Under the pieces are notes generated by a model. The model was not told the origin of the DNA. It worked only from the letters and a program-made list of their open reading frames with translations, and did no database searches. Positions 18,038-19,997 of a stretch of DNA of 39,999 nucleotides are shown piece after piece. The position numbers and the translations under genes are program-made. Source of the stretch: Candidatus Hydrogenedentota bacterium (lineage in GTDB: Bacteria; Hydrogenedentota; Hydrogenedentia; Hydrogenedentales; CAITNO01); assembly GCA_012730105.1 (NCBI GenBank), contig JAAYBJ010000167.1, positions 1 to 39,999 on the forward strand, read 5' to 3'. Every line of letters begins with the position of its first letter. Within the stretch, counting starts at the first letter, position 1.

Positions 18038-18267
18038 TGCCCCCATTACCAGTGCTGACATATAAAGATGTGGTCAGGACCTTTGAACGCATGGGATGGC
18101 ACGTCGCCCGTCAACAGGGCAGTCATATTGTCATGATAAAGGAAGGGCATGTCGCGACGTTGTCGATTCCAGCGCATAAGGAAGTCGCCAGAGGCACCTT
18201 ACGGGGACTTATCCGCGCGGCGGATGCAAGTGTATCAGAATTCTGTGAGGCCAACGAAAATCTGTAG
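18037..18267 (+). CDS. hicA: HicA-family toxin (mRNA interferase)
   Basis: 76-aa double-stranded-RNA-binding-like toxin that cleaves mRNA when free of HicB. It has the family pattern KDVVRTFERMGW, then RQQGSHIVM with the catalytic His30, then IPAHKEVARGTLRGLIR. All expected parts are intact, so the pair is probably functional. It starts inside the hicB stop codon. An AbrB-type reading frame begins two bases after its stop, so all three may share one transcript. Confidence 0.92.
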   Translation: MPPLPVLTYKDVVRTFERMGWHVARQQGSHIVMIKEGHVATLSIPAHKEVARGTLRGLIRAADASVSEFCEANENL

Positions 18268-18268
18268 T

Positions 18269-18514
18269 ATGTTTCAGCGGGTCATGCCGAGCCTCCAACG
18301 CTTACCGCGAGGCATCCCCACCGTTATCGCCGACGGTCAAATATCCGTTCCAAAAGAGATGCTTCACGCATTAAACATCCAGACGGGTGACACCGTGGAT
18401 GTAGAAAGCCTGCCGGACGGCTCCATCCGTATCTTTCCCAATACACTAAACGCTTCGGAAGTGGCCGCTATGCTGAAGACGAAAAGTCCATTCCACAATC
18501 GAAGAGATGGATGA
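18269..18514 (+). CDS. AbrB/SpoVT-type antitoxin-like protein, C-terminus frameshifted, toxin partner missing
   Basis: 81-aa frame containing a swapped-hairpin AbrB DNA-binding domain: VIADGQISVPKEMLHALNIQ, then GDTVDVESLPDGSIRIFP. The last residues (NRRDG) look wrong. In the +1 frame the DNA continues TIEEMDEAVAVASRKSS to a stop at 18546-18548, which is the normal end of such antitoxins (MDEA-type tail). Restoring one CA to the CACA at 18494-18497 joins the two halves, so a two-base contraction of a CACACA run is the simplest cause (a mutation or an assembly error). A PIN or other toxin would be expected right after it, but the next gene is a methyltransferase on the opposite strand. The start two bases after hicA has no strong ribosome binding site; an ATG at 18284 is possible. 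Confidence 0.7.
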   Translation: MFQRVMPSLQRLPRGIPTVIADGQISVPKEMLHALNIQTGDTVDVESLPDGSIRIFPNTLNASEVAAMLKTKSPFHNRRDG

Positions 18515-18573: not shown

Positions 18574-19362
18574 TTACCTGGATTTATCCGGAATCCTGTA
18601 GCTGTCCTCTTCAAGCCGTTTCAGCGCAAAGGCGTGGTACTCCGGCACGATTTCATACCCGATATACTGGCGGCCCATTTCGCGGCAGACAACAGCCACC
18701 TGCCCGGAGCCCAGGAAAGGGTCCAGCACGATGTCCCCGGGCTCGCTGGCATAGGCCAGAATTTTCCTGACCAGTTCCGCCGGCAGCTTGGTGGGGGTTT
18801 TCATATCGCCGTGCCAGTATTCACGGGGAATCTCCCAGACATCCTCCATGTCGCGATAGCGCAGGCTTCTGCCCGCGTCCGTACGCGCGTCGGGGCCGAA
18901 GCGGCTGTTGTAGAAAAATTTCCGCTTCTGCTCGTTCTTGCACAAGTACAGGCAATGATAGTGGGAGCTTACAAAGCGGCGCTTGCAGAACACCCCGAAC
19001 TGGTATTTCCAGATCAGGTGGTTCACCGTGATGAATCCCAGGGAATCCGCGGCGACCAGCAGATCCTTGAGGTTGTTCCACCCGGAGAAGACAAACATCG
19101 CCCCCGATTCCTTGAGCACGCGGTGGGCCTGGGTCATCCAGCGTTTTGTAAACACCGGATACTTGGACACGGTGATTTCACTGTAGCCCTCCAGCACGCG
19201 CGCAGCCTTGCGGTGATAATTGTGGCGCGTTGACGTAAAATCGATGGCAAAGGGCGGATCCGTGATGATCAGGTCTATGCTTTCCCCGGGCAGGAAGCGC
19301 ATGCCCGGAATACAATCCTTGTTATGGATATGGTTCAACGTATCCTCAATCCGCACAATCAT
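18574..19362 (-). CDS. DNA methyltransferase, beta class (orphan)
   Basis: 262-aa SAM-dependent DNA methylase with catalytic motif DPPF (35-38) before the SAM-binding DPFLGSG (214-220), the order of beta-class N6-adenine/N4-cytosine enzymes. Residues between about 120 and 200 would carry target recognition, and the specificity cannot be read by eye. No restriction endonuclease, specificity subunit or Vsr-type gene is adjacent, so it is an orphan or a remnant. GGAGG touches the ATG at 19362 directly; the in-frame GTG at 19356 has better spacing (6 bases) and may be the true start. It is the last gene on the left of an accessory patch that also holds hicBA and a RiPP-like precursor. Confidence 0.9.
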   Translation of the reverse strand: MIVRIEDTLNHIHNKDCIPGMRFLPGESIDLIITDPPFAIDFTSTRHNYHRKAARVLEGYSEITVSKYPVFTKRWMTQAHRVLKESGAMFVFSGWNNLKDLLVAADSLGFITVNHLIWKYQFGVFCKRRFVSSHYHCLYLCKNEQKRKFFYNSRFGPDARTDAGRSLRYRDMEDVWEIPREYWHGDMKTPTKLPAELVRKILAYASEPGDIVLDPFLGSGQVAVVCREMGRQYIGYEIVPEYHAFALKRLEEDSYRIPDKSR

Positions 19363-19450
19363 CCTCCAACATCAACGAGAAATAACACCATCCCCCTGCT
19401 CACAACACGCAGGAATATCCAACATCGCAACGACAAAGCTCTTTTCGTCT

Positions 19451-19476
19451 GGTTCCCAAATTCTCATTTGGGAACC
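19451..19476. repeat. REP-like perfect palindrome
   Basis: GGTTCCCAAAT, a four-base loop and ATTTGGGAACC form an 11-bp perfect stem. The core GTTCCCA/TGGGAAC with a nearby GGGAACGAG is like the GTTCCCAnnn extragenic palindromes spread through many bacterial genomes. A degenerate second copy lies at about 19571-19605. Confidence 0.7.
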
Positions 19477-19606
19477 CCTTCTCTCTTGAAATTCCATTTC
19501 TTTCTTATCCGTTGCGTAATACTTGTACCGCAAGCCCTGGCCACTGGTTGGAAGTACAACATCGCACACTCTCGCATTACAAAATGGAATTTGGGAACGA
19601 GAAATC

Positions 19607-19764: not shown

Positions 19765-19920
19765 TTACTTTGCTTCTTCACCCAGGGCAAGCGTGGTGAT
19801 ATGCCCGTCGCCACAGCAGGCCTCTTCTCCTATGGCCAGCGTGGTGATCCCGAAGGCGTACTCCGGCCTTTCGAGTTCCTCGATGAAAAGCTGCTTTGTC
19901 GCTGTCTTGGCGCGCTTCAT
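19765..19920 (-). CDS. Putative plesiocin-type graspetide (RiPP) precursor, orphan
   Basis: 51-aa peptide gene. Residues 1-23 look like a charged leader (containing QLFIEELERPEY). The rest is two copies of ITTLA[I/L]GEEA at residues 25-34 and 41-50, joined by CCGDGH, and then a final Lys. TTLAIGEE and TTLALGEE both fit TTxxxxEE, the core motif of plesiocin-type graspetides, in which an ATP-grasp ligase forms ester links between Thr hydroxyls and Glu side chains. The two repeats differ at five of ten codons, but only Ile/Leu changes the protein, as expected for selection on the peptide. ATG at 19920 has GGAG about nine bases upstream, and a promoter lies just before it (19969-19997), so it is its own transcription unit. 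No ATP-grasp enzyme, protease or exporter is in this window; the ligase would have to be elsewhere. The pair of adjacent Cys in the linker is unusual. The function of a mature product is unknown. Confidence 0.72.
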   Translation of the reverse strand: MKRAKTATKQLFIEELERPEYAFGITTLAIGEEACCGDGHITTLALGEEAK

Positions 19921-19968
19921 TCCGGATTCTCCGGTAATGTCCTGAACCCGTCGCTTTCCTGTCCATCC

Positions 19969-19997
19969 AGCATACCACAATCCGGGTGTTTTGTCCA
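19969..19997 (-). promoter_or_regulatory. Promoter of the graspetide-like precursor gene
   Basis: On the minus strand TGGACA (19997-19992), a 17-base spacer and TATGCT (19974-19969) match the consensus in five and four of six bases, and the -10 has a TGG extension. Transcription should start near 19962, giving a leader of about 40 bases with GGAG before the ATG at 19920. This excludes the longer in-frame start at 19980, which lies upstream of the -10. Confidence 0.6.

Follow-up and report, generated by a model that had tools for sequence, protein, structure and literature searches.

A putative plesiocin-type graspetide system with unlinked precursor and ligase genes in an uncultured Hydrogenedentota bacterium

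Introduction

Plesiocin, from the PsnA2/PsnB system of Plesiocystis pacifica, carries two esters in each repeat that close nested hairpin rings (PMC12291112, PMC13097080), and it inhibits serine proteases potently, the more strongly the more of its units are cyclised (PMC13097080). The clusters of its class, the group 2 graspetides, often include an NHLM-type transporter (PMC13097080). Assignment to the class is based here on a repeated TTxxxxEE core, a PsnA2-like leader motif and a PsnB-like ATP-grasp ligase in the same genome; a ligase adjoining the precursor is usual and an NHLM-type transporter nearby is frequent, neither of them being essential. The locus described here lies in a 39,999-nt stretch of a Hydrogenedentota draft genome (hereafter the window) and encodes a precursor with two core copies and the leader sequence LFIEEL. 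The PsnB-like ligase is encoded on another contig of that genome (C67), and neither an adjoining ligase nor a nearby NHLM-type transporter is found at the precursor.

Results

The precursor gene and its surroundings

The frame at 19765-19920 of the minus strand, with an ATG start and a TAA stop, translates to MKRAKTATKQLFIEELERPEYAFGITTLAIGEEACCGDGHITTLALGEEAK* (51 aa), and this translation bears out the description in the initial annotation of a minus-strand gene with repeats at residues 25-34 and 41-50 and a CCGDGH spacer. The start codon is supported by the relatives described below, most of which start M-K-[KR] at the same position. The leader (residues 1-24; 19849-19920, minus strand) contains the presumed recognition motif L-F-I-E-E-L-E-R-P, and its residues L11, I13, L16, E17, P19 and A22 are invariant in the 15 relatives, with LFIEDL in the same place in PsnA2. 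It had been called acidic, which is incorrect: the net charge is +1, and a basic N-terminus is followed by EELE. On the same strand, core unit 1 (ITTLAIGEEA, residues 25-34; 19819-19848) has TTxxxxEE at this position in 14 of 15 family members, and in core unit 2 (ITTLALGEEA, residues 41-50; 19771-19800) T42, T43, E48 and E49 are invariant in all 15. The two copies differ in five of ten codons, four silently and one by Ile to Leu, as had been counted. Between them lies the linker CCGDGH (residues 35-40; 19801-19818, minus strand), which varies in length and sequence across the family.

Upstream of the ATG, again on the minus strand, there is a putative ribosome-binding stretch with GGAG (19926-19935) and, about 49 nt away, a promoter-like site (TGGACA-17-TATGCT, with TG ahead of the second hexamer; 19969-19997). 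The latter is suggestive at most, since one such site was found where 1.0 is expected by chance. The precursor matched no Pfam or NCBIfam family, and Rfam returned no RNA near the gene.

Just one frame in the window holds two TTxxxxEE motifs, and none arose in 100 third-order Markov simulations of 40 kb. A search of the whole genome for further peptides of this kind had been suggested: the 5.6-Mb genome contains no other TTxAxGEE site, nor any site for the reversed control pattern.

The neighbouring genes that were tested are unrelated to the system. The stretch 18149-18514 (plus strand) encodes a MazE/AbrB-type antitoxin-like protein, and 18574-19362 holds an N6/N4 DNA methylase gene whose position is conserved in a same-genus genome. 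A 160-bp palindromic interspersed element (19444-19604), with inverted ends around TTCCCAAATT / AATTTGGGAA, lies downstream of the precursor at a distance of about 160 nt; it is REP/BIME-like and recurs, whole or in part, dozens of times in the genome, the best copies being 92-93% identical.

A precursor family in Hydrogenedentota

A search for the same precursor in related MAGs had been suggested, and among all 68 Hydrogenedentota genomes searched it was found in 15. Every one of these precursors has the leader motif L[FY]I..LE..P and two core units, and the aligned leaders give the consensus MKRTKxxSKxxLFIEELERPAxA. The TTxxxxEE spacing, loss of which among homologues had been named as evidence against the assignment, is kept among the 15. 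Only one of the 30 core units is degenerate, the first unit of genome G033 (VTEALGEF; L047 9664-9855, an unlinked locus), where the second core is intact. The initial annotation had considered two cores and a Cys-Cys linker an unusual layout; two cores are instead the family norm in Hydrogenedentota (15/15). Conservation does not extend to the Cys-Cys linker, and the linker cysteines of the window precursor should not be over-read. A homologue with 60% identity was also recovered in a public genome search, on Candidatus Hydrogenedentota contig DUZM01000248.1 (L007), where a 307-aa ATP-grasp gene directly follows the precursor; its linker region has a CAKC stretch.

Selection acts on the peptide sequence, as two pairs of closely related genomes show by a clear majority of silent codon differences (28 silent against 5 amino-acid-changing in G020/G042; 6 silent and none amino-acid-changing in G054/G056). 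A chance repeat within a spurious small frame might have been suspected of a short, unannotated frame without a Pfam or NCBIfam match. Its retention in 15 genomes, the protein-level selection and the co-occurring ligase leave that reading with a practically negligible probability, and on this sequence conservation we regard it as refuted.

In a PDB-wide search with a profile of the 15 precursors, the best match was the plesiocin precursor fragment PsnA2 14-38, LFIEDLGKVTGGKGGPYTTLAIGEE (E 0.026, next 0.62), aligned in register across leader and core (LFIEDL...TTLAIGEE). The E-value is modest because the PsnA2 chain has 25 residues, yet the molecule that was hit is the one to be expected for this class. 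The match depended on the 15-member profile, as phmmer with the single window precursor found no match in the PDB. Together with the PsnB-like ligase in the genome, the profile match upholds the original proposal of a plesiocin-type (group 2) graspetide precursor.

The candidate ligase

Neither a ligase nor a ligase remnant is present in the 39,999-nt window. The initial annotation had placed the ligase elsewhere or taken the precursor for a relic, and named the absence of an ATP-grasp ligase from complete relatives as evidence against a graspetide; a genome search located an ATP-grasp protein of 311-323 aa on contig C67 (24,320-25,288, minus strand). Its best PDB sequence match is the plesiocin ligase PsnB (E 5e-58; next 3e-17), and its AlphaFold model (pLDDT 91) has PsnB as the best fold match (TM 0.88, 38% identity). 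It shares 58.6% identity with the DUZM01000248.1 ligase, whose gene comes right after the homologous precursor. The ATP-grasp signature residues are invariant across the 15 ligases of the phylum, and the C67 ligase is intact with all family-invariant residues present. The nearest NCBIfam model, TIGR04187 (ATP-grasp ribosomal peptide maturase), scores 106.5 bits, well under its 350-bit cut-off.

It could be argued that C67 encodes a RimK-like ligase with another substrate and that a different ATP-grasp enzyme modifies the precursor, given that RimK-family models also match the C67 protein and a second RimK-domain protein is encoded on C309. PsnB is nevertheless ahead of RimK by some 130 bits in the PDB sequence search and also by fold, and in 12 genomes the homologous precursor is immediately followed by a homologue of the C67 protein, which makes the involvement of another enzyme extremely unlikely.

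Co-occurrence and gene order

With ligase presence defined as E below 1e-40, the precursor and ligase sets are identical, at 15 of the 68 genomes of the phylum; the chance of such identity is ~2e-15 if phylogeny is ignored. In 12 of these genomes the ligase gene comes immediately after the precursor, and the two lie on different contigs in the remaining three, the window genome included. Both genes are inside their contigs in G065, one of the other two; in G033 the ligase is 232 nt from a contig end, a stretch without a precursor. A mirror-tree comparison of precursor and ligase gave r 0.53, falling to 0.18 (p 0.21) with near-duplicate genomes removed, and it is not counted as evidence because its significance depended on those genomes. 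The ligase tree itself is poorly resolved.

Precursor and ligase frames overlap or abut in several linked relatives, as with GTGA at the junction in G047 and an ATG within the end of the precursor in G035. Four linked loci (L051 407-1497, L055 2063-3162, L045 5221-6326 and L042 9571-10688) have no ATG, GTG or TTG from the precursor stop to the conserved ligase domain, and in three of them a CTG overlaps the precursor stop (CTGA). This overlap suggests, from the reading frames, a CTG start or a frameshift fusion of the ligase in such loci. Apart from the ligase, no neighbour family is common to the loci, and no peptidase or exporter is shared; with no other gene in common, the system seems to consist of two genes and to lack an exporter or peptidase of its own.

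Separation of the two genes

The pair is adjacent in 12 relatives and the genome is a MAG of 343 contigs with 3.2% contamination, both of which would be compatible with genes that adjoin in the real chromosome and were separated by assembly or binning. Both genes are well within their contigs, though (precursor at 19.8 of 40.0 kb, ligase at 24.3 of 33.5 kb), and both contigs are native to the same genus: RadA on the window contig has its nearest matches in same-genus genomes (85%), as does MetH on C67 (80-82%). In the same-genus genome G002, colinear genes flank the precursor site (the DNA methylase on one side; WbsX, a helicase and a transporter on the other), and an unrelated spacer stands where the window has the precursor. 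The MetH side of C67 is colinear with G001 and G002, and G001 keeps the gene next to the ligase and lacks the ligase. Such synteny within the genus speaks against a chimeric assembly, and G065 and G033 are separated likewise. The artefact reading is thus largely refuted, its remaining probability being very small, and the unlinked layout is real, within the limits of what a draft genome can show.

A second reading of the separation is that the precursor is a relic, left after the pair broke up and no longer expressed or modified. The unlinked genes, the lack of a strong promoter at the precursor, the absence of both genes from three same-genus genomes and the abundant palindromic repeat ~160 nt downstream, as a sign of local rearrangement, would all be in keeping with such a history. 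No precursor remnant was found at the matching G002 site, whose spacer is of unrelated sequence and has many repeats of its own. What speaks against a relic is that neither gene has decayed: the precursor has an unbroken frame and all invariant leader and core residues, and the ligase has all family-invariant residues; the genes are, moreover, retained or lost together across the phylum. We therefore consider a relic improbable.

Discussion

A working plesiocin-type graspetide system with its two genes unlinked is, with high probability, the best explanation of these observations. Counted against it are the missing linkage in the window genome, the lack of a shared peptidase or exporter, a mirror-tree correlation that loses significance without the near-duplicates, and the TIGR04187 score below the cut-off; the genome is also a MAG, although both contigs fall in one genus. 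The family, its conserved motifs, the identity of the ligase, the co-occurrence and the unlinked layout are read from sequence, and the plesiocin model indicates how the parts may function together. The leader motif LFIEELERP would dock in trans on the C67 ligase, which would use ATP to activate the glutamates of each TTxxxxEE core and join them to the threonines. Following the plesiocin pattern, nested omega-esters would form between Thr27 and Glu32 and between Thr26 and Glu33 in core 1, and between Thr43 and Glu48 and between Thr42 and Glu49 in core 2. Two esters per core, four in total, would correspond to the loss of four waters, and the leader would then be removed by some protease to leave two cross-linked hairpins with CCGDGH between them.

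By analogy to plesiocin, serine-type proteases would probably be inhibited, with one loop (LAIG or LALG) presented by each head. A two-headed protease-inhibiting peptide is thus the probable product and the best guess for function, because plesiocin inhibits, and does so more strongly with more cyclised units. More tentatively, single-precursor/single-ligase pairs may be stably unlinked in several Hydrogenedentota lineages, the ligase acting in trans on a remote and separately controlled precursor, and in the window species the Cys-Cys linker could in addition hold the two hairpins in place or serve to attach them; we regard this as possible and rather doubtful. Should stable unlinking be true, such precursors would escape mining tools that search beside the ligase only. 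Since a graspetide precursor can sit far from its ligase, surveys confined to ligase neighbourhoods will arrive at too few precursors and record such ligases as orphans. The results extend plesiocin-type peptides to a candidate phylum with no RiPP report in the literature searched, and they provide a precursor-ligase pair that is ready for expression.

Repeated cores are normal for group 2, and what is uncommon about this locus is its unlinked layout; the literature searched gave no report of a graspetide with its precursor apart from its ligase, which is not proof of absence. The system shares with plesiocin the tandem TTxxxxEE cores, the LFIE[DE]L leader motif and a single PsnB-like ATP-grasp ligase. 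It differs in having two cores rather than four, in the lack of an adjoining ligase and of a transporter, and in its uncultured Hydrogenedentota host. The linked Hydrogenedentota pairs, such as that on DUZM01000248.1, are of the same family, with two cores and, in that example, a ligase 59% identical; unlike the window locus, they have the ligase directly after the precursor, with overlapping or abutting frames in several.

Beyond the phylum, a three-core precursor of the myxobacterium Hyalangium versicolor (L008 9340-9765) resembles the window gene in its TTxxxxEE cores and in having no PsnB-like ligase within ~10 kb, but that organism has several ATP-grasp ligases; a PsnB-like one elsewhere in its genome (L092) adjoins a two-core precursor of its own. 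A Synechococcales MAG (L009 9800-11022) encodes a three-core TTLAxxEE precursor, and directly after it comes an ATP-grasp ligase that shares 35% identity with that of C67. A TTLALGE match in an Oscillospiraceae sequence (L010) was set aside as a chance occurrence inside a larger unrelated frame with no second core. Thuringinin, a trivalent graspetide, likewise has tandem hairpin cores with two esters each and a single ligase (PMC12291112), whereas its leader and core motif, as described in the literature, set it apart. In gene arrangement there is a likeness to the prochlorosins, for which precursor genes are scattered from a modifying enzyme that works in trans (ProcA/ProcM; PMC10783134). Their chemistry, however, is that of lanthipeptides, and one enzyme serves dozens of precursors, compared with the one precursor and one ligase per genome observed here.
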